Program-made: the position numbers and the translations under genes
Origin: Candidatus Zixiibacteriota bacterium
Lineage (GTDB): Bacteria; Zixibacteria; MSB-5A5; GN15; FEB-12
NCBI GenBank assembly: GCA_024278935.1
Contig: JAJRSF010000047.1
Coordinates: forward strand, 1 to 33,050
DNA: 33,050 nucleotides
Reading direction: 5' to 3'
Notes under the pieces: generated by a model
Databases searched by the model: none
The model's input: the letters and a program-made list of their open reading frames with translations, nothing else
What the model was told of the DNA's origin: nothing
Part shown: positions 21,330-33,050 of the stretch, piece after piece
How positions within the stretch are numbered: the stretch's first letter is position 1
How the letters are laid out: every line of letters starts with the position of its first letter

Positions 21330-21501
21330 ATAACTTTCATCTTTATTGTTTTCCTGATTATATAATACGTTATAAAAATTGAATCTGCCACAGAAAAGAA
21401 AGAGAAATTATATAATAACTTTGAGAATAGTGAACTTTTTCTACTCTTATTCTGTTCTACATATACAAACCAAGCAAACAAATTTAAAAAAAAGAGAACC
21501 G

Positions 21502-22629
21502 ATGATAGAGATAATTCTATTTGCAGCAACAATATTTTTAGCCTACTCAAATGGTGCCAATGATAATTTCAAAGGTGTCGCAACATTATTCGGAAGTAAA
21601 ACGACCAACTACAAAACAGCTCTTGCATGGGGGACTGTGACAACTCTTGCCGGTTCATGTTTTTCGATATTGATTGCTCATAAATTGGTTATTGCATTTT
21701 CCGGTAAAGGACTTGTCTCAACTTCTGTTACTCAAATGCCTGAGTACTTACTCGCCGTTGGTTTAGGTGCTGCTCTTACAGTTTTTATCGCAACTCTTCT
21801 CGGTTTCCCAATTTCGACAACCCATGCACTTATAGGTTCCTTGGTTGGGAGCGGGTTCATGGCGTCTGGTGCCGACTTAAATTTTGCCGCCTTATCAAAA
21901 TCATTCATCGCACCTTTATTGATAAGTCCGATTGTTGCATTGAGTGCAGCATCTCTCATTTATATTATTTTCCGTAAAGCAAGACAAGTGATGGGCGTTA
22001 CAAAAGAATACTGTTTATGCGTAGGTAAAACACAAGAGGTTGTAGCGGTCGCATCAAGTAGGGAATCATTAGCACTTATGCAGGCATCGCATACTATAAC
22101 AAACGATCTTACCATAGACAAAGAATCAGTATGTATAGAAAAATATGAAGGTTCTTTTTTAGGAATCAAAGCAGAAAAAATCTTAGATGTTTTCCATTTT
22201 CTAAGTGCCGGTGTTGTATCGTTCGCTCGTGGCTTAAACGACACGCCAAAAATCATGGGGATACTAATTGTAGTTAAGACACTCGACTTACAAATCAGTA
22301 TGGTAACTATTGCGATTGCAATGGCAATAGGTGGTCTTTTAAGTGCGAAAAAAGTTGCCCATGTTATGAGTAACGACATCACTTATCTCAACCACGGACA
22401 AGGCTTCACTGCAAATCTTGTTACTGGTATCATAGTTCTTTTTGCATCCAAATTTGGTATGCCGGGCTCTACGACACACGTATCGGTAAGTGCATTATTT
22501 GGAATTGGCATGATTAACAAAAAAGCTAATTATAGAGTTATTGGAAAAATTCTGTTATCGTGGCTTATCACATTACCACTTGGAGCATTGCTTGCCGGCT
22601 CGGCTTATTATATCATTCAGCAGTTGTAA
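21502..22629 (+). CDS. PiT family inorganic phosphate transporter
   Basis: A 375-residue secondary transporter in the inner membrane that brings in phosphate by ion symport. The internal duplication typical of PiT is clear: YSNGANDNFKGVATLFGSKT at the N-terminus and FARGLNDTPKIMG near residue 235, and TLLGFPISTTHALIGSLVGS mirrored by GMPGSTTHVSVSALFGIG. The start at 21502 was chosen over the upstream 21379 ATG because the extra 41 residues are basic and unrelated to the family and AAAGAGAA precedes the ATG. PhoU-like regulators often accompany PiT genes; none is present. A few PiT proteins move sulfate instead, so the substrate is likely but not certain. Confidence 0.88.
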   Translation: MIEIILFAATIFLAYSNGANDNFKGVATLFGSKTTNYKTALAWGTVTTLAGSCFSILIAHKLVIAFSGKGLVSTSVTQMPEYLLAVGLGAALTVFIATLLGFPISTTHALIGSLVGSGFMASGADLNFAALSKSFIAPLLISPIVALSAASLIYIIFRKARQVMGVTKEYCLCVGKTQEVVAVASSRESLALMQASHTITNDLTIDKESVCIEKYEGSFLGIKAEKILDVFHFLSAGVVSFARGLNDTPKIMGILIVVKTLDLQISMVTIAIAMAIGGLLSAKKVAHVMSNDITYLNHGQGFTANLVTGIIVLFASKFGMPGSTTHVSVSALFGIGMINKKANYRVIGKILLSWLITLPLGALLAGSAYYIIQQL

Positions 22630-24259: not shown

Positions 24260-24672
24260 CGGTTTGATTCCAATAATGTATAAGATTTTTTTGTCAGTTT
24301 GAAAGTGCTGTTACTATTTAACATATCGTCAAATATACGTAGAAATTCAACTAAAAGAAGATAGTTTTTATTCTAATTAAACATAGTAGTTCAGTGCTTG
24401 AGCTGGTTATCTGATTTTCACACTAAATGGAGTATCACCACCGTTTTCAATCCAGAAAAGCAATAACCCAACAGTGTAATCGTCACTAACATAATAGGGG
24501 ACAAACTTTGTTGAATATTAAAATTTTCTAAGGCAAATTATTTTTCAATTGTAAACATGATTTTTTGTAACTATTAGTAGACTTTACCGTCTACTTAAGG
24601 ATGTCACATAACGAAATAAAAGGAAATTGATAAAAAAACAATAACAAACAAATAAAAAGAGAAGAAAATATT
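24260..24672. other. 413-bp intergenic region, promoters and one hairpin
   Basis: No coding frame is supported here. The region separates two divergent genes and must carry their promoters; it is very AT-rich and I could not pick a convincing one. One perfect hairpin is visible: AGTAGAC (24576-24582) with GTCTACT (24589-24595), 77 bases before the SBBP gene, without a T tract. It marks the change from housekeeping genes to the plus-strand propeller gene cluster. Confidence 0.5.
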
Positions 24673-25452
24673 ATGTTAAGAAAAATTTGTTTTATTTTAA
24701 TCGCAATTTATATGAGTTTGGGAATAACGCAGGCTCAAACCAATGAAGATTCAGATAGCACAGTATATACACTTGGATTCTCAACCTATCTATCTCATAC
24801 AGATAAATACGGAGCTGGTTTTGATGTTTTTTCAGATGATGAGGGCAATACTTATGTCTCAGGTAATACTAGAGATAAAAATTTTCCTGCCACAGAAGGA
24901 GCATATCAAACAGAACTTAAAGGTGAGGCAGATGCTTTTGTAGCAAAATTTACGCCTGATGGAAAGCTTGCATTTGCAACATTAATCGGTGGCACTAAAA
25001 GAGAACATCATACCGCAATAACAGTTGATGAGGCGGGCTATATATATATTGCCGGAGGAACTCATTCATCCGACTTCCCTGTTACACCAGGAACTTATGA
25101 TACAAGTTTTAATGGTGAAGGAGTATGGGCTGGCGATGTTTACTTAGCCAAATTAAACCCAACTGGAACGGAAATTATTTTTTCTACATTTATTGGAGGA
25201 GAAGTAGAGGAAACAGTAGGGTCAGGATGTATTAAGATTGATTCTAAAGGTAATATTATTATTGCAGGAGTTACTCGCTCTATTGATTTTCCTCTTACAA
25301 AAGGTATCATTGAAAATAAAATACATCGCATAGTTTCCTTTCTAAATTTAGTCCCGATGGTAAAAAGCTTTTATTTTCTACCATCTTTGGAAACAGTCCA
25401 ATGGAAAAGATTACCGGGCTTGATCTTGATGATAAAAATAATATTTATATAA
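24673..25452 (+). CDS. SBBP-repeat beta-propeller protein, N-terminal part (frameshifted)
   Basis: The start has AGAGAAG upstream and a signal peptide (MLRKICFILIAIYMSLGITQ, cleaved after AQA). Three SBBP blades follow, each with the YVSGNTRDKNFPATEGAYQT-type pattern: about 58-80, 122-145 and 187-210 (IIIAGVTRSIDFPLT). From about residue 215 the frame is wrong: one base is missing, most simply an A from the run at 25318-25321, and after repair the protein continues NTSHSFLSKFSPDGKKLLFS into the next piece. The last roughly 40 residues of this frame are therefore not native. SBBP proteins are secreted or surface seven-bladed propellers of unknown ligand. Confidence 0.8.
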   Translation: MLRKICFILIAIYMSLGITQAQTNEDSDSTVYTLGFSTYLSHTDKYGAGFDVFSDDEGNTYVSGNTRDKNFPATEGAYQTELKGEADAFVAKFTPDGKLAFATLIGGTKREHHTAITVDEAGYIYIAGGTHSSDFPVTPGTYDTSFNGEGVWAGDVYLAKLNPTGTEIIFSTFIGGEVEETVGSGCIKIDSKGNIIIAGVTRSIDFPLTKGIIENKIHRIVSFLNLVPMVKSFYFLPSLETVQWKRLPGLILMIKIIFI

Positions 25453-26207
25453 CAGGCGGTACTTTTTCAACAGACTTACCAGTAACTGACAATGCTGTTC
25501 GAAAAGAAATAATTACACCTACAATACAAGGCGGAGCTGATCATTTTATTGCCAAAATAAACGGAACAGATGCCAAAATTTCATATTTAAGCTATTACGC
25601 TACCAATGGATATATGAGTTCATATATTAAGTGGACAAAGCCAAACAGGTTGATAGTATGTGGCACCACTATTGAAGAAGGTTTCCCGGTAACTGATAAT
25701 GCTATAAGTAAAAAAGGTAAAGGTAATCGGGATTGCTTTATATCGGTATTTAATTCCGATGATATGACCTTAGAATACTCTACTTTGTTTGGGGGAAGTG
25801 AAGCTGAGAAAGTCATGTCAGCAAATTTTCTTAGTAAAGATACTATTGTTATTGGAGGAGTTACAAGTTCTCCAGATTTTCCGCTTACTGAAAATGCTAT
25901 ATATTCGGACTATCCAATTTGTGAGAAGACTTTTAATTCGACATTTTTCGCACGCAAAAAACCTTTTGTCTCTGTAATCGACATTAAAAATAGTAAACTC
26001 GTTTTCTCAACCTACCTAGGCTCTGGTTTTGTATTTAGACTTCACCCGGATAAAAATGGAAATATCAGTTTTGTTGCAGAAGCAGGTCAGCGTGGTGAAG
26101 CTGGGATTACAGGATTCCCCGTTACGGAAAATGCCATTATGGAACCTCCAACTTATCTCATGGTAGGGCGATTGTTGTTAAATGCGAAACCTGAACCGAA
26201 AAAGTAA
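25401..26207 (+). CDS. SBBP-repeat beta-propeller protein, C-terminal part
   Basis: This frame is open from 25322 and continues the blades of the preceding piece: LDDKNNIYITGGTFSTDLPV, RLIVCGTTIEEGFPVTDNAI, IVIGGVTSSPDFPLTENAI and a final blade ending GITGFPVTENAI. That gives four blades here and three before, seven in all, as expected for this fold. The ATG at 25401 is an internal methionine (NSPMEKITG) with no ribosome binding site. The frame ends at TAA 26205-26207, but the same frame stays open beyond it and encodes a DUF3471 domain, so the stop may be a nonsense change within a longer gene. Confidence 0.8.
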   Translation: MEKITGLDLDDKNNIYITGGTFSTDLPVTDNAVRKEIITPTIQGGADHFIAKINGTDAKISYLSYYATNGYMSSYIKWTKPNRLIVCGTTIEEGFPVTDNAISKKGKGNRDCFISVFNSDDMTLEYSTLFGGSEAEKVMSANFLSKDTIVIGGVTSSPDFPLTENAIYSDYPICEKTFNSTFFARKKPFVSVIDIKNSKLVFSTYLGSGFVFRLHPDKNGNISFVAEAGQRGEAGITGFPVTENAIMEPPTYLMVGRLLLNAKPEPKK

Positions 26208-26489
26208 ATCATAGCGGTTCCTGTTGAAGATGCTATTCTAGAAAGTTATGTAGGTAGATATGAACTCATGGCGGGCTTAATCCTGACTATCAGGAAATAT
26301 GATAGTCAATTGAAAGTGCAACTAACCGGACAAGGGGAAGGATCCATAACCCCAATAGCTCAAAATCTGTTTGTTATAAATGGAGTGGAGGCTCAACTTA
26401 CATTTAATATAAATGAAGCTGGTGAAGTCGAAAGTATGACTTTAAATCAGAACGGGACGGACAATATTTGTAAAAGATTAGCCGAATAA
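26208..26489 (+). pseudogene. DUF3471 domain, in frame after the SBBP stop codon
   Basis: Directly after the SBBP stop and in the same frame come about 93 codons without interruption. They match DUF3471: VPVEDAILESYVGRYEL, then LILTIRKYDSQLKVQLTGQG, and a closing QLTFNINEAGEVESMTLNQN. The first ATG (26268) lies after the conserved YVGRYEL, so it cannot be a native start, and no ribosome binding site is seen. DUF3471 normally forms the C-terminus of serine beta-lactamase-like hydrolases. Either it was the tail of the SBBP protein, or a remnant of a hydrolase fused here. The serine hydrolase just downstream lacks this domain. Confidence 0.7.
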
Positions 26490-26546
26490 TGGATGGTTAT
26501 TAAAAATGGATTTGAATAGTAAAGAACTGCCTAAAGAAAGTTAAAA

Positions 26547-27722
26547 ATGATGTATCGTTTAAAAAAATATAGTTGGGTTGTAGGTTTAATATTATTGGTT
26601 CTGCTCATAAATAAATCTATAAGCCCTACTCAAGCTAAATTCGCCGAAAAAACAGAGGTAACAAACAGATCTGATCAAATTCATAATGATTTAGCGGATC
26701 TGATTTTAGATGGTAAAGCTCCCGGTATGATTGCTGCTATTATTTCCAGTGATAGTGTCATTGCCATTGCATCGGCAGGTGTTCGTAAAGCTGGCTCAGA
26801 TATTGCATTTACCACTCATGATAATATACATCTCGGATCCTGTGCCAAAGTAATGACGAGTGTATTGCTTGCAACTTTGGTAGCAGAAGGAAAGTTAAGC
26901 TGGGAATCAAAATTGACTGATGTCATTCCTGAACTTAAAAAAAACATTCATCCTGATTTTCAAAACGTTACACTTTGGCAACTTCTTACACATCGTACAG
27001 GTCTTCGTAAAAATCCAAGTGATTGGTCAGCACATTCAGATAAAGAAATCATCGAGAGACGCTTGGCAATCTTACAAGATAATCTTGAGTCAGCTGCATC
27101 AAATGACATTGGTGAGTTCCATTATTCAAATTTAGGTTACATGATTGCAGCATGTATGGCGGAAAAAGTTACAGGTATGAGCTGGGAAACTTTGATAAGA
27201 GAACGTTTGTTTGAACCATTGGGTATGTCTTCAGCTGGGTTTGGGGCTCCGCATACACCCGATCAAATAGATCAGCCATGGGGGCATTCATGGGTCTTCT
27301 CATTGTTTGGAAACAATTGGGAACCTGATCAGGATTATAACCCAGAAGCCCTTGGACCAGCAGGTCGAGTTCATTGTAACATTGCAGATTGGGCAAAATT
27401 TCTATCTCTATTTTTAAACGATGATAATTCTTTTATAGATAGTAAATATTTACATAAACTCATTACACCAATTGGCTATTTTGCAGGAGGATGGGTTGTT
27501 TTAAAAGAGAAAGATCAGCCATGGGCTAAAGGAATAGTGCTAGTCCATTCTGGTAGCAACGGAATATGGTTTACATCTGTTATGGTGGCTCCAAGATTAA
27601 ACAGAGCATATATCGTAGCGACGAACTCGCGTGAATTTGGTTCTACCGAAGGTGTATGTCAAGAAATGCTCAGTAAGATAGTAAAAATGGATATGAAAAA
27701 AAGTAAGCAAACAAATGAGTAA
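26547..27722 (+). CDS. Serine hydrolase, class C beta-lactamase-like (PF00144)
   Basis: The 391-residue protein has an N-terminal hydrophobic segment (about 9-22) that acts as a signal peptide or anchor. All three catalytic motifs of the family are present: SxxK as SCAK at 98-101, YxN as YSN at 193-195, and HxG as HSG at 334-336. HRTGLRKNPSDWS and the FEPLGMSSAGFG loop are also typical. These enzymes act on peptidoglycan D-Ala peptides, other peptides or esters in the periplasm; the sequence does not show which. Two ATGs in a row start the gene, with AAAGAAAG upstream. It is intact, unlike most neighbours, and ends at NE without the DUF3471 tail. Confidence 0.88.
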   Translation: MMYRLKKYSWVVGLILLVLLINKSISPTQAKFAEKTEVTNRSDQIHNDLADLILDGKAPGMIAAIISSDSVIAIASAGVRKAGSDIAFTTHDNIHLGSCAKVMTSVLLATLVAEGKLSWESKLTDVIPELKKNIHPDFQNVTLWQLLTHRTGLRKNPSDWSAHSDKEIIERRLAILQDNLESAASNDIGEFHYSNLGYMIAACMAEKVTGMSWETLIRERLFEPLGMSSAGFGAPHTPDQIDQPWGHSWVFSLFGNNWEPDQDYNPEALGPAGRVHCNIADWAKFLSLFLNDDNSFIDSKYLHKLITPIGYFAGGWVVLKEKDQPWAKGIVLVHSGSNGIWFTSVMVAPRLNRAYIVATNSREFGSTEGVCQEMLSKIVKMDMKKSKQTNE

Positions 27723-27784
27723 GTAATTAAAGATATGAGACAGAATCGAAACTTAAAATTCAGTTACGTAACAAGGACATCTCA

Positions 27785-28243
27785 ATGAAAAAGAAATATG
27801 CTTTACTGTTTGTTACATTGCTCATAATGTTGAGCGGTATTACATGTACACAAGAAAATACAAATTATCTGAAACTAGAAAATCAATATTTTGGATTAAA
27901 AACACCTGGGCTAATCCCTGAAGTATTCGCACCTGGCATTGTCTCAGATAGTTCTTGGGCTGAGCATTGTCAAGTTGCTATCTCACCAAATGGAGATGAA
28001 ATCTACTGGTCGGCATGGACAGGAGCTTACAAATCAGAAGATGGATCTAAAAACACTGAACAATTATTTTATTCAAAATTTGAAAATCCTGTTTGGTCAA
28101 AACCAAAACTGGCTGAATTCACTGAGGGAAATCCACATGGACTTAATGGAGGACCCTGTTTCTCACCCGATGGCAAAAAGCTATATTTTTATCAAGTAAA
28201 AAGTCCATGGGTAACATCACCAAAAAGATGTTACTATGTCTAA
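27785..28243 (+). CDS. PD40-type beta-propeller protein, N-terminal part (in-frame stop)
   Basis: The gene starts with AAGGA upstream and a hydrophobic export signal, MKKKYALLFVTLLIMLSGIT followed by Cys21; the context is only a weak lipobox. Blades of the PD40/WD40-like type follow: VAISPNGDEIYWSAWTG and PCFSPDGKKLYFYQV. The frame stops at TAA 28241-28243 (RCYYV, stop) but remains open in the same frame for another 160 codons with matching blades, beginning KKNGEWSNKLTDVGQ. So this is one roughly 312-residue gene with a single nonsense codon, not two genes. Confidence 0.75.
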   Translation: MKKKYALLFVTLLIMLSGITCTQENTNYLKLENQYFGLKTPGLIPEVFAPGIVSDSSWAEHCQVAISPNGDEIYWSAWTGAYKSEDGSKNTEQLFYSKFENPVWSKPKLAEFTEGNPHGLNGGPCFSPDGKKLYFYQVKSPWVTSPKRCYYV

Positions 28244-28369
28244 AAGAAAAATGGAGAATGGAGCAATAAACTCACTGATGTAGGTCAACCCTATAGTTCA
28301 GAAAGTTATAATTACAGTCCTATATTCACAAAAAATGGACATGCATATAAATACGACAGAGGAACGATA

Positions 28370-28723
28370 TTGAAATTTTTATATGAAAATGAAAAGTTCA
28401 CATTGTTAGACACGATTGTCATCCATAAAGATTTTAAACCTGCTTGGAATTTTTATGTATCTCCTATGGAAGAGTATATAATTTTTGCTGCCAATCATGA
28501 GAGTGGATTCGGTGATATCGATTTGTATATTAGTTATAAAACCGAGAACGGGGAATGGGGATACCCGATAAATATGGGAGATAAAATAAACACCGAGCTT
28601 CGAGAACGTTTCCCTATTGTTTCTCCCGATGGGAAGTATCTGTTTTTTATGAGACACACAAAACCAAATCAAGATTTCTTCTGGGTTTCAACGGACATTT
28701 TTGAAGAAATTGAAAAACAATAA
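28370..28723 (+). CDS. PD40-type beta-propeller protein, C-terminal part
   Basis: The same frame as the preceding piece; it is open from 28244. It contains the blades FYVSPMEEYIIFAANHESGF with GDIDLYISYK, and FPIVSPDGKYLFFMRH, and ends in FEEIEKQ. The GD-DLY-S motif is typical of PD40 proteins of FCB bacteria. The TTG at 28370 is only the first possible start in the frame and has no ribosome binding site, so separate translation is doubtful. Confidence 0.7.
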   Translation: MKFLYENEKFTLLDTIVIHKDFKPAWNFYVSPMEEYIIFAANHESGFGDIDLYISYKTENGEWGYPINMGDKINTELRERFPIVSPDGKYLFFMRHTKPNQDFFWVSTDIFEEIEKQ

Positions 28724-28750
28724 GTTGAGATTGTTTCTAAAGGAGTTAAA

Positions 28751-29440
28751 ATGAATAGAAAATCAAAGAAACTTTTTAAAATAATATTGATCAGTACCTT
28801 AATACTCTTCATACAATTTAATTTCCTCAATGCAGAGGAGCTTTTTATCCCAAATGGGCAAAATATAACCACATCTAATAGTTGGGTTATCAATTTGGCA
28901 GATTTTAATGGAGATGGTAAACTTGACGCTTATTTTGAAGGCAACATATGGCTAAACGAGGGCAAGGGCAATTTTGCTAAAACCAACCGTAATTTTGGCT
29001 CGGGGATTTTTGTCAATTTCGCAGATCTGAATGGTGATGGTTTAATTGATGGGGTTAGCGAGGATAAATTATATCTAGATGATGGTAGCCACAATTACAG
29101 TATCAGTTCTCCACTTACTTGTGATATTAAGATGCATTCTGCAGTACTGGTCGATCTTGATGATGATACTGACATCGATATCATCAGTTGTTCAACAACC
29201 GAGGACAGGATCCTCTTGAACAATGGAAAAGGTCACTTCACAAATACTGGTAAAAAACTGGGAGGTTGGGCGCAGGCGAAGTATGTTTTCGGTGATATAA
29301 ACGGTGATGGCTTTATAGATATTTATGTGGCGATTCCCCACACACCACCTCCTGCTATGGTGCATTCTCCAAACAAAATTTGGCTCAGTGATGGAAAAAA
29401 GGCTTTATTGAGAGAGATCATGATATTCCAAAAGCGATGA
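28751..29440 (+). CDS. FG-GAP/VCBS propeller protein, N-terminal part (frameshifted)
   Basis: A strong AAAGGAG lies five bases before the ATG. After a basic, hydrophobic signal peptide (about residues 1-31) four calcium-binding type FG-GAP repeats are seen: LADFNGDGKLDAYF, FADLNGDGLIDGVS, LVDLDDDTDIDIIS, FGDINGDGFIDIYV. The D-x-D-x-D-G loops are as in integrin alpha-type propellers. Past residue 216 the frame is wrong because one A is missing from the run at 29395-29400; with seven A the frame continues DGKKGFIERDHDIPKAM into the next piece. The last eleven residues of this frame are not native. Confidence 0.82.
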   Translation: MNRKSKKLFKIILISTLILFIQFNFLNAEELFIPNGQNITTSNSWVINLADFNGDGKLDAYFEGNIWLNEGKGNFAKTNRNFGSGIFVNFADLNGDGLIDGVSEDKLYLDDGSHNYSISSPLTCDIKMHSAVLVDLDDDTDIDIISCSTTEDRILLNNGKGHFTNTGKKLGGWAQAKYVFGDINGDGFIDIYVAIPHTPPPAMVHSPNKIWLSDGKKALLREIMIFQKR

Positions 29441-29898
29441 GTAGAAGTGCAATTTTATCTGATTTTGACAACGATGGAGACCTTGATTTGTTTGTTGCCA
29501 GCAATGGAGATACTGGAAATTTAATATTTTTTAATGATGGTAAAGGAAATTTTACCAACAGTGGTCAAAAGCTAGGGAATAATTCCAATTCAGCAAAAAC
29601 TGCTGATTTTGATAATGATGGTGATTCTGATTTGTTTATTTGTCATGGCGAAGTTCCTCTTGGCAATGGTGTCTCCAACTTGATTTGGTTAAATGATGGG
29701 AAAGGACATTTTACCGATAGCCACATGCGATTGGGGCACTCAAACAGTGCGGAAGTTGCGTTGGGTGATATCAACCAGGATGGCAAAATCGATGCCGTAG
29801 TGGTAAATACAAAGTTAGACAAAAATAATAATTATAATGCTGTTCCATCTCCACTGGAAATTTGGATAAATAAATCCTCAGATAAAAAAGGAAAATAA
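29437..29898 (+). CDS. FG-GAP/VCBS propeller protein, C-terminal part
   Basis: The continuation of the preceding gene, overlapping it by four bases; the frame is open from 29401. It adds three repeats: LSDFDNDGDLDLFVAS, TADFDNDGDSDLFICH and LGDINQDGKIDAVVVN. With the four upstream this makes seven, the same as the intact paralogue at 30724, and the joined length (about 382 residues) is close to that paralogue's 372. The ATG at 29437 is an internal methionine (PKAMSRS). Confidence 0.8.
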   Translation: MSRSAILSDFDNDGDLDLFVASNGDTGNLIFFNDGKGNFTNSGQKLGNNSNSAKTADFDNDGDSDLFICHGEVPLGNGVSNLIWLNDGKGHFTDSHMRLGHSNSAEVALGDINQDGKIDAVVVNTKLDKNNNYNAVPSPLEIWINKSSDKKGK

Positions 29899-30112
29899 TT
29901 ATAGCTATATCAAAACCTACCTGAGTTGGGGTACGAGGCATTGTGTCCTTTTGTGATAATGGAAAAATAAGTGCGAAATAGCGGTAGAATTGGGTACACA
30001 TTTAAAGATGAGAATCTGGCACTCTACAAACAGGGTCTTAAAAGGACCAAGGCAAGTTTCTATTCTCATTTGAATCAAAGAACTTTATTGTAAAAGTAAA
30101 TTTGGAGAAATT
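29899..30112. other. Intergenic region with an enclosing inverted repeat
   Basis: No gene is supported in these 214 bases. ATGAGAAT (30008-30015) and ATTCTCAT (30062-30069) form an 8-bp inverted repeat around a smaller GGTC/GACC hairpin. GTTGGGGTACGAGGC (29935) and ATTGGGTACACA (29989) are two vaguely similar GGGTAC-containing stretches. No terminator follows the FG-GAP gene. Confidence 0.35.
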
Positions 30113-30630
30113 TTGAAAAGAAAAATAACATTCATTTTATTTGGATTAGTTTTCATGTTAATCTTTTTTTAAGTCAGGTATCATATGGACAAATGAAAAC
30201 TAATGAATTTACTTTTGAGTATGACGGTAAAAAGTATAACGGACTTCTTGACTTACCCAAAAATGAAAAACCATCAGCAATAGTTGTTATCATTCATGGA
30301 CACGGAAAAACAAATATTGATAATAATAAACTAAAAATATTTCATTCCGGAGATTATAATGGTTCTGAAATAGTCGAGTTTGAAAAATTACAATTACAGA
30401 ATGAAAATATTGACTTAGCATTCTTAAATTTCTAAGGTTTTTGGAACAGAAAAGAGGAACAAGAATTTACTGAAAAATATATTAAGCCAAAGAAAATAAC
30501 CTTAATGCATATTCCACCGGCAGAAATTGAAAAAGTTAAAGATTCTGTTAATCTGGTAAATGATTTTATACATATTTCTGTATTTGAGAATAGCATGGAT
30601 AGAAAATCTTTTTCTTACTTATATCAATAG
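30113..30630 (+). pseudogene. Remnant of an exported alpha/beta-hydrolase-like gene
   Basis: GGAG at 30104-30107 serves a TTG at 30113 that begins a signal peptide (KRKITFILFGLVFMLIF). The frame then stops in a T7 run (30164-30170); one more T would join it to SQVSYGQ and on to the ATG-starting frame at 30193. That frame has YDGKKYNGLLDLP and SAIVVIIHGHGKT, the oxyanion-hole strand of alpha/beta hydrolases, and stops at TAA 30433-30435, but stays open in the same frame to TAG 30628-30630 (GFWNRKEEQEFTEKY onward). The nucleophile GxSxG motif is absent and the total length (about 170 codons) is short, so an internal part was probably lost as well. Confidence 0.65.
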
Positions 30631-30723
30631 TTTGACTAAGAGATTCTTTAAAATCCCAAATTATGTATATACTAAAAGTGTGGAAAAATATTAATGTATT
30701 TTATATAAGTTGAAAGAGATAAA

Positions 30724-31842
30724 ATGAACAGTAATTTAAAACATAATTACAGCAAACATACATTGTATATTATCGTTACCTTTCTTTGTTTCCTGTTTCT
30801 GCGATTTGAAACTACCCATGCTCAAAACAAACTGTTTACTGACAAACAGCAGATTGCCAATGGGCGAGTCTGGGATGTTGCTTTTGAAGATTTAAACAAA
30901 GATGGTTTCAATGATTTAGTTGTAGCAAATTGGGTCAAGCCACCAACAATCTACTATAATGATACCAGTAGAACTTTTGAAAACTTCACATCTCTAAACT
31001 CTTATGAACCACAAGATAGTTCTTATAAATGCCATGCTGTTGCTATCGATGATTTCAACAATGATAATATGCCTGACATCTTCTTTGTTTTTAACGGGCA
31101 TAACAATTTTATATACTTAAACAATGATGGTCAGTTTCTTACAACCGATACTATCAATAGCAACAACTTGGATGGATTATATATTTCTTTAGCTGATCTT
31201 GATAACGACAATGACATAGATGCTCTTGTGACCAATTACAAACAACCTAATGTTTTATGGCTTAATGATGGTAAAGGGATTTTTAAAAAAGATTCTGCTG
31301 ACTTTGGATCGAGTGGCTATAACACTGACTTAGGTGATATAAATAATGATGGTTCTACAGACATTGTTTGTAGCATCAACGGATCTGTTGTTGTCTGGTT
31401 TAATAAAGGCGGTGGAAAATTTGAGCAAAGCACACAATCGCTAGGTTATCAAAATGGATTTGGAAAAGTTACGTTAGCAGACATGGATAATGACCAAGAT
31501 TTAGATATCGTTCTTGCCAATAGAAACAACGGTGGTTCTGTATGGTCCAATGATGGTGATGGAAACTTTTCTGAGACAATAAACAATCTCACCAAAAGTT
31601 CTACAATATGTGTCGGCGATATTGATTTAGATGGTCAACAAGATATCATTCTTGGAAAAACTATTTGGCTAAACAATGGAAATAGCAAATTTACCCAACA
31701 GGGTACAATCGAAACTGATGGAAGAATCCTTGGCTTGTGGCTAAACGATATTGACAACGATGGCGACTTGGATTTGTTTTATGCAACGACAAATTTAGAG
31801 GACGGTTTGGAAATGATAAAGAACTCAACTAAAGGCTTATAA
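30724..31842 (+). CDS. Exported seven-repeat FG-GAP/VCBS propeller protein
   Basis: An intact 372-residue paralogue of the broken gene at 28751. The signal peptide ends at HAQ (about residue 34). Seven FG-GAP repeats are visible: FEDLNKDGFNDLVV, IDDFNNDNMPDIFF, LADLDNDNDIDALV, LGDINNDGSTDIVC, LADMDNDQDLDIVL, VGDIDLDGQQDIIL and LNDIDNDGDLDLFY. This predicts a seven-bladed, calcium-binding propeller secreted to the periplasm or surface. No C-terminal sorting domain follows; the protein ends two dozen residues after the last blade. AAAGAG precedes the ATG. The Kelch gene starts two bases after its stop, so they form an operon. Confidence 0.88.
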   Translation: MNSNLKHNYSKHTLYIIVTFLCFLFLRFETTHAQNKLFTDKQQIANGRVWDVAFEDLNKDGFNDLVVANWVKPPTIYYNDTSRTFENFTSLNSYEPQDSSYKCHAVAIDDFNNDNMPDIFFVFNGHNNFIYLNNDGQFLTTDTINSNNLDGLYISLADLDNDNDIDALVTNYKQPNVLWLNDGKGIFKKDSADFGSSGYNTDLGDINNDGSTDIVCSINGSVVVWFNKGGGKFEQSTQSLGYQNGFGKVTLADMDNDQDLDIVLANRNNGGSVWSNDGDGNFSETINNLTKSSTICVGDIDLDGQQDIILGKTIWLNNGNSKFTQQGTIETDGRILGLWLNDIDNDGDLDLFYATTNLEDGLEMIKNSTKGL

Positions 31843-31844
31843 AA

Positions 31845-32798
31845 ATGAAAAAAATATTATTCATTATAATAATACTCACCGCTACATGTTCATCTTTTGC
31901 CCAAACAATTAAATGGAAGCAGTTAGCCTCTCTACCGGAAGGGTCTTATTGCGGTGAAGCTGTTACCTTAAATAGTGAAATATATTTTGTCGCAGGACGA
32001 AATGACTCTTCATTAAGCTCATCTTTTTACAAATTTGATCTCGATAAAAATCAGTGGATAGAATTGGAAGAGATCCCAAACCCAACAATGAATTTAGCAT
32101 TAACGGCTAGTAATGGAAAAATTTATGCTATTGGTGGTGACAAATTTCAAAACACCAACCGTGAGTACAATCCTCAAACCAACACATGGAAAATTTTGGA
32201 ACCAATGCCCACAGCAAGACAGCATATTGATTGTGGAGCATTTGAAAATAATATTTATATAATGGGAGGTCTGACTTCATGGGAAAATATTTCGAAAAAG
32301 AATGAAGTATATAATGTTAATACCAATTCCTGGTCAGAGAAAGCAGCCATTCCTTCTTTAAGAAATAATGCTGCAGTAGTAACTTTGGATTCACTCATCT
32401 ATGTAATTGGCGGCGCTGGTACTAAAGAAAATATTTGGGGCGATATATTAACTGTTGAAACTTATAATATTCACTCAGATAAATGGGTACAAAAAAACGA
32501 TTTACCACTATTGCTTTTTAAACCTGGGGCAATTGTGGTTGATAGTGAAATTATTGTTTTGGGTGGACAAACCAGAATAGATGGTAAAGATGATTGTTCA
32601 AAAAAAGTTTTTATTTATAAACCGAATTCTGATAGATGGATAGAAACAACTCCCTTACCTGCCAAAAATGTGTTTTTTGGTTGCACTTCTATTGATAATA
32701 AAATTTATGTTATTGGTGGAACCTCTAGTGGTCCTAATTGGGATTCATATACGACAGTTTATGAAGGTGAGTTTATAACAAATAATTCTAAAAAGTAA
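31845..32798 (+). CDS. Exported Kelch-repeat beta-propeller protein
   Basis: The 317-residue protein has a signal peptide (MKKILFIIIILTATCSSFAQ) and six Kelch blades, marked by the strands IYFVAG, IYAIGG, IYIMGG, IYVIGG, IIVLGG and IYVIGG, each followed by a conserved Trp in the N-x-W pattern (TNTWKILEPMPTARQH, TNSWSEKAAIPSLRNN). Six blades make one complete propeller. Bacterial periplasmic Kelch proteins include N-acetylneuraminate epimerase (NanM), but no nan gene is nearby, so no enzyme role is claimed. AAAGG within the end of the preceding gene is the ribosome binding site, so translation is coupled to the FG-GAP gene. Confidence 0.88.
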   Translation: MKKILFIIIILTATCSSFAQTIKWKQLASLPEGSYCGEAVTLNSEIYFVAGRNDSSLSSSFYKFDLDKNQWIELEEIPNPTMNLALTASNGKIYAIGGDKFQNTNREYNPQTNTWKILEPMPTARQHIDCGAFENNIYIMGGLTSWENISKKNEVYNVNTNSWSEKAAIPSLRNNAAVVTLDSLIYVIGGAGTKENIWGDILTVETYNIHSDKWVQKNDLPLLLFKPGAIVVDSEIIVLGGQTRIDGKDDCSKKVFIYKPNSDRWIETTPLPAKNVFFGCTSIDNKIYVIGGTSSGPNWDSYTTVYEGEFITNNSKK

Positions 32799-32909
32799 TT
32801 TCGACGGGTGATCCAGCCCTTGGGGTGGTGGGGCACCCAAAAGTTATTATATTATGTACTGATTATTGAAATAAGGGAATTTATAGCATTAGTAAAACAT
32901 ACAAAGTAT

Positions 32910-32959
32910 GCGGGGAACTTGGGATACATATCGAACTTTGTTATATGAGAAATCGTAAT
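32910..32959 (+). repeat. 50-bp direct repeat, copy 1
   Basis: Begins GCGGGGAACTTGGGATACAT and ends AGAAATCGTAAT. It is identical over 50 bases to the copy at 33001-33050 and lies 91 bases before it. A perfect hairpin CATAC-AAA-GTATG immediately precedes it. No coding frame is present. Confidence 0.9.
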
Positions 32960-33000
32960 AATTGGGAAAGTTTTCGTACTAATAAAGCCATTATTTAATG

Positions 33001-33050
33001 GCGGGGAACTTGGGATACATATCGAACTTTGTTATATGAGAAATCGTAAT
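33001..33050 (+). repeat. 50-bp direct repeat, copy 2 (cut by window end)
   Basis: Identical to the copy at 32910-32959 up to the end of the window, so the true repeat may be longer. It is preceded by a different but perfect hairpin, GCCATT-ATTT-AATGGC, whose 3' arm runs into the repeat. The unit between copies is 91 bases, 41 of them unlike. Confidence 0.9.

Follow-up and report, generated by a model that had tools for sequence, protein, structure and literature searches.

Tandem 91-bp repeats behind a tRNA-Ser gene of Candidatus Zixiibacteriota as probable att-site units of tRNA-targeting integrative elements

The window analysed here is a stretch of 33,050 nucleotides comprising the whole of contig C47 from the genome of a Candidatus Zixiibacteriota bacterium (68 contigs, 3.40 Mb). 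It ends in two perfect direct copies of a 50-bp sequence (32910–32959 and 33001–33050), offset by 91 bp, which raises the question of what these repeats are and what lies past the point where the contig breaks. This is the longest exact direct repeat within the last 1.15 kb, where the maximum in 200 shuffles was 15 bp. The first-pass annotation reported two identical 50-base blocks at this spacing, each preceded by a hairpin, and both observations are borne out. The hairpins are CATAC-AAA-GTATG (32898–32910) and GCCATT-ATTT-AATGGC (32987–33002), and both share one or two bases with the block that follows. On the minus strand the second reads GCCATTAAATAATGGC followed by TTTATTAG, and the first CATACTTTGTATG followed by TTTTA. 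In a terminator scan the window hairpins were terminator-like (two found compared with 0.1 expected).

The final 137 bases of the window are bases 1–137 of another contig, C25, and there the array continues. The full 91-bp unit is repeated in C25 (1–91 versus 92–182) with 99% identity, hairpin included, and the array terminates at the 3′ end of a tRNA-Ser(GGA) gene (C25:177–265, minus strand). A tRNA scan of the window found no tRNA gene inside it. On the minus strand the order is tRNA-Ser(GGA), units and then the window, reading away from the tRNA. From the tRNA outward each unit comprises the terminator-like hairpin, a spacer of ∼50 bases and a 27-base core, GTTCGATATGTATCCCAAGTTCCCCGC, which resembles a tRNA 3′ end and matches it well only in the last bases. 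The tRNA-proximal core in the window, an att-like site, is located at 33001–33027 (minus strand), where R2, a 35-base model of the core region, matches at 33001–33034. The second core is identical and lies at 32910–32936 on the same strand, identified by the exact repeat and by R2. One complete compact unit reads from 33000 to 32910, with 99% identity to the next unit in C25, while 33001–33050 is the distal portion of the next unit, which the contig end truncates and which, as the overlap of the two contigs indicates, continues in C25 to the tRNA. The 41 bases between the blocks, originally taken to be unlike, are thus part of the repeated unit. The notion that the block is conserved and the hairpin variable holds for the wider family described below, and fails for the two window units, which have the same hairpin; the CATAC hairpin is the beginning of the next segment out, as judged from its sequence and from the clustering of junctions. 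A single compact unit probably gave rise to the two near-identical copies by local amplification in tandem. Since the overlap between the contigs is compatible with either 137 or 46 bases, the array has at least two units and may have more, the assembly leaving the number ambiguous.

A repeat that touches a contig end, with a second contig starting with the same 137 bp, could be an assembly duplication, and the first-pass annotation named two such copies as the result that would undo its reading. Similar tandem units were nevertheless found inside contigs, both in the same genome (C65, 94 bp) and in others (G028 C51 with six cores, 87 bp; G015 C30, 90 bp; G054 C77, 92 bp). We therefore regard an assembly duplication as very improbable; C47 probably broke at a real repeat that the assembler left unresolved.

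Related units are present at other loci of the same genome, behind tRNA-Ser(GCT) on C1 (88% over 101 bp) and on C65 (six cores) and C38. On the latter two contigs an integrase gene lies behind tRNA-Ser(CGA) and tRNA-Ser(TGA) respectively, and a copy of the 3′ end of the same tRNA is found further on (CGA at ∼16.3 kb of C65, TGA at ∼146.5 kb of C38) with cores beside both. We take these copies to mark where islands of ∼51 and ∼42 kb end on the side away from the tRNA. Taken together with C25 and C1, all four tRNA-Ser genes then have units downstream, either directly or past an island.

Other tRNA genes of this genome have arrays of their own. The units of the tRNA-fMet array are 81 bp long, have another core, AAACCGACTCCCCGCTACCA, and include a strong hairpin of the terminator-like kind; the array (L184, 4164–4291) lies at the end of C37 and continues in C63, where a related unit occurs again 3.8 kb further on. 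Behind tRNA-Tyr (start of C28, 1–130) are tandem units of ∼71 bp ending in CCGACCCCCCACCA. This array too is cut by a contig end. C27 and C61 share their terminal 70 bases, which come from a tRNA gene, and in one of them these adjoin an integrase gene. In addition, the flank directly behind tRNA-Ser(GGA) in the sister genome G002 (C39) is found in the present genome behind the tRNA-Ser(CGA) array and island (C25/C65), and in G003 (C80) the tRNA-Ser(GGA) and tRNA-Ser(CGA) genes face outward ∼40 kb apart. The exchange of flanks between G002 and the present genome would be accounted for by an inversion between these two loci; inversions of this kind are reported to be caused by archaeal integrases (PMC5495485).

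The search was extended to relatives, with the present genome included in every count. R1, a model of the unit, had matches in 11 of 41 genomes, and R2, which was built from 42 of 55 sites, in 26 of the 79 genomes of the order. As a simple pattern the core was found in 16 of 80 genomes with up to two mismatches. Allowing up to one mismatch across the phylum it was found in 16 of 132, all in the order of the window, with none in the 52 genomes of other orders; the reversed control gave 0 in both searches. The named matches were two Candidatus Zixiibacteriota MAGs. An A is located six bases before the core in 53 of the 55 sites. A search of viral contigs, phages and plasmids gave no match to the repeat, and an origin in any of these was set aside on that basis. 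No Rfam family except tRNA scored above its gathering threshold.

The position of the cores was analysed for 63 mapped examples from 18 genomes, comprising those with a score of at least 20 in 33 stretches including the window, with weaker cores left out. Fifteen lie within 200 nt on the 3′ side of a tRNA gene (Ser 12, Gln 2 and Leu 1), all 15 oriented with the tRNA, and none within 200 nt on the 5′ side. The first core starts 61–65 nt past the tRNA in most loci, with exceptions that include 32 and 82. For several other cores the DNA examined contains no tRNA gene close by. Spacings between neighbours on the same strand fall largely into two ranges, with 15 of 31 at 87–109 bp, corresponding to compact units, and 10 of 31 at 626–3155 bp. 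The longer segments mostly contain one main gene, in mixed orientation, and as named from their translations only the cargo includes cyclase-like, YceI-like and NmrA-like proteins, a chemotaxis receptor and membrane proteins. Cores bound such cassettes also far from any tRNA, and segments bounded by cores or att sites stand in tandem, some without an integrase.

With several intergenic copies per genome, the core might also be an interspersed REP- or MITE-like repeat that lies between genes by chance. Its copies cluster on one strand in arrays, with the bias to the 3′ side of tRNA genes noted above. Moreover, conservation is confined to one edge of each segment (55 sites) and no terminal inverted repeats were seen, so that we consider this explanation improbable.

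A perfect stem of at least 5 bp is present at the start of 28 of 33 distinct compact units, compared with 4.4% of shuffles, and 15 different stems are represented; the units were made distinct by sequence, and those with gaps of 21–33 may be chance or partial. When all cores are taken, a stem of this length is found in 15 of 51, compared with 8.6% of 488 background windows. The hairpin is therefore characteristic of the compact units and is ruled out as a necessary part of every core. Other candidates were also set aside. A CRISPR-like array was excluded because the adjacent 64-bp ‘spacers’ are copies of each other. The unit is close to tRNA-Ser in length, and could be thought a pseudo-tRNA, yet units behind the shorter tRNA-Gln are still ∼92–95 bp, and the likeness to tRNA is confined to the far edge of the unit. 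A folded site of the attC kind is unsupported, as the whole-unit fold of three stretches from the window and C25 was no better than that of shuffles.

A hairpin kept through many sequence changes and resembling a terminator, together with the constant gap behind the tRNAs, is what might be expected of an element acting at the RNA level. In the tyrT/rtT repeats of Escherichia coli, units stand in tandem downstream of a tRNA gene and every unit includes a copy of that tRNA's 3′ end; in both respects the units here are alike. The unit would then be a tRNA trailer in which a terminator and a decoy of the tRNA end affect tRNA processing, with slippage producing the tandem copies and gene conversion carrying them from one tRNA-Ser gene to another. 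The rtT unit is, however, about twice as long as that of the window, is found at a single locus and is not known to be linked to cassettes or integrases.

A tyrosine integrase family (PF00589, PF13102) gave 50 matches in 31 of the 79 genomes, with E values up to 1e-50, and the surroundings of 30 of these were examined. In 24 of the 30 loci the integrase match is preceded, at a distance of 90–156 nt, by a tRNA 3′ end (Ser 17, Met 3, Leu 2, His 1 and Gln 1). Another integrase lies behind tmRNA and another behind the same type of 3′ end at a contig start, and upstream of three of the 30 there is neither a tRNA or tmRNA nor a core. G070 has tRNA-Ser(TGA) followed by a compact unit with its core and then by the integrase, and in G023 an integrase starts past a core at a contig end. 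These two loci suggest that cores can replace the tRNA end as a target. No recombinase was found beside the cores in loci L121–L138. An integrase of the family is present in 14 of the 26 genomes with cores versus 17 of the 53 without, a difference that is not significant (p 0.087). The same integrase family may also move the cassettes that have no integrase. A direct repeat, GTGCCA-N5-GTGCCA, was seen by eye shortly before the integrase start in loci L241, L236, L239 and L242, and is possibly an arm-type binding site.

The 50 bases past 99 tRNA 3′ ends and cores were clustered, giving 14 clusters. Eight mix tRNA 3′ ends and cores upstream of a similar left end; one of these reflects similarity of the next core only, leaving seven. 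The join point is …CCGC|. In G014 tRNA-Ser(GCT) is followed by a 1.4-kb segment containing only an integrase, an att site and a 5.08-kb block, while in G053 tRNA-Leu(CAG) is followed by a cyclase cassette, a core and then a 5.08-kb block 94% identical to that of G014. The match starts at the att or core junction, and its right end is not at a core. The orthologous flank of the two genomes has only 88.6% identity, so by this comparison the block looks younger than the split between the species. A similar left end is found after a core in G052 and after the island copy of the tRNA-Ser(TGA) 3′ end in G053. At the tRNA-Ser(GCT) locus, a short unit and a 175-aa cassette are present in G053 and absent from G052; the sequence past them in G053 starts directly at the tRNA in G052, with 80% identity over 85 bp, part of which is the junction itself. 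The ends of the islands repeat the tRNA 3′ end, whereas cores match the target well only in their last bases. Within some arrays, 3′-end remnants of integrase genes are followed by att-like sites (L171, 8990–9224; L123, 10979–11208), as if they were decayed integrase-bearing elements.

The junctions bear directly on the trailer. Left ends that swap between tRNA ends and cores, integrase genes behind cores and cassettes bounded by cores at a distance from any tRNA are not expected of an RNA element, and neither the whole-unit fold nor the Rfam search lends it support. We regard the trailer as unlikely, albeit less so than the interspersed repeat.

The reading that we favour, and think probable, is that the repeats are compact att-site units of tRNA-targeting integrative elements, stacked directly behind tRNA-Ser(GGA). 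Position, architecture, shared junctions and the placement of integrases indicate an accretion of att-bounded elements behind tRNA genes, in which the 27-bp core at the far edge of the compact unit can substitute for the 3′ end of the tRNA. The earlier suggestion of a series of recombination sites or the end of a mobile element was right in direction, in that the att-like units lie behind tRNA-Ser(GGA) and cores bound cassettes and islands elsewhere. Tyrosine integrases would recombine at tmRNA and at genes for tRNA-Ser, Leu, Gln, Met and His, in each case at the 3′ end. Incoming DNA would be inserted at the last tRNA bases (CCGC|), displacing older downstream sequence and leaving an att site at its far end. 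Repeated entry would then build an ordered tandem pile with the newest element adjoining the tRNA, and the cores would be targets as well, probably for the same kind of enzyme. Since entry would part the tRNA from its own terminator, the compact units would carry a hairpin to replace it, presumably functioning as a terminator. The elements of a pile would range from units of ∼90 bp, the smallest, through cassettes of ∼0.6–3 kb to islands of ∼40–56 kb, and some may still be mobile. Against this reading, excising duplex DNA as a circle of only 91 bp is physically difficult. The lack of a recombinase beside the cores in L121–L138, the non-significant association of cores with the integrase family, the limited match between core and tRNA end, the right end of the 5.08-kb block, and the cores and integrases with no tRNA close by likewise count against it.

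A further reading goes beyond accretion to a form of gene capture resembling that of integrons. The tRNA 3′ ends would be the points of entry and the hairpin-and-core units portable sites, and tRNA-targeting tyrosine integrases acting on the cores in trans would allow single genes that carry no recombinase to move among the tRNA-Ser, Leu and Gln loci. We offer this only tentatively. Integrons are arrays of small cassettes with one recombination site at the end of each, a fixed entry point and a tyrosine recombinase, and the cassette arrays here likewise have one conserved site each. In contrast to integrons, the integrases here are of the PF00589/PF13102 type and often missing from the array, the site is a short core with a flanking hairpin, and gene orientation is mixed. 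No IntI–attI platform was found at the array heads. We do not class the system as an integron because the heads are tRNA genes and there is no attC-like fold.

Closer parallels are provided by elements stacked behind RNA genes. In the ssrA islands of Dehalococcoides, according to the part of the account consulted, many elements follow one another behind a single RNA gene, with direct repeats of the 3′ end of that gene at their boundaries; an integration module is missing from 15 of 31, and a consistent difference in sequence exists between genes and repeats (PMC3146451). The present system resembles them in its many tandem elements at an RNA gene, in being bounded by repeats, in that some elements lack an integrase and in the gene–repeat difference. 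It differs in that those islands use a serine recombinase, a tmRNA target and 20-bp repeats nearly equal to that target, and the sections consulted do not mention compact 90-bp units or hairpins (PMC3146451). CIMEs are described, again in the portion consulted, as decayed ICEs or IMEs without an integrase that keep their att sites and pile up at a tRNA 3′ end through site-specific recombination (PMC5704250). Such accretion of CIMEs, ICEs and IMEs is like that observed here as far as integrase-less, att-bearing elements stacked at a tRNA 3′ end are concerned. Unlike the CIMEs as described there, the units here extend down to ∼90 bp, many are cassettes with one main gene, and the conserved core is mostly unlike the tRNA. 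A literature search, mainly of openly accessible papers, found those on accretion and on ssrA islands and none on compact units. Accretion without an integrase behind tRNA genes is therefore known in principle; the compact units, a conserved core largely unlike its target and the one-gene cassettes appear to be new, and set the system apart.

On the other side of the array, positions 1 to 24.26 kb of the window match G002 C5 and G003 C79 in large part. The gene of a PHO4 phosphate transporter (21379–22629) lies in this part; it is in place in G002, and adjoins a core on G003 C34. From 24.3 kb to the array there is no match in G002 C5 or G003 C79, and no further core within. This accessory segment (24260–32897) encodes FG-GAP, Kelch, beta-lactamase-fold and other proteins, as assigned by Pfam. 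With synteny broken at 24.3 kb, the array marks a border between the tRNA and the accessory segment, in agreement with the first-pass annotation, which had proposed that it bounds the propeller-rich region.

If this reading is correct, a few conserved sites behind tRNA genes would let uncultured bacteria collect small gene cassettes, and the 27-bp motif would make those cassettes findable across the order. It would account for some of the places where the assembly of this genome breaks at a tRNA gene. It would also link the accretion of genomic islands with integron-like arrays, and provide defined sites at which both could be tested.
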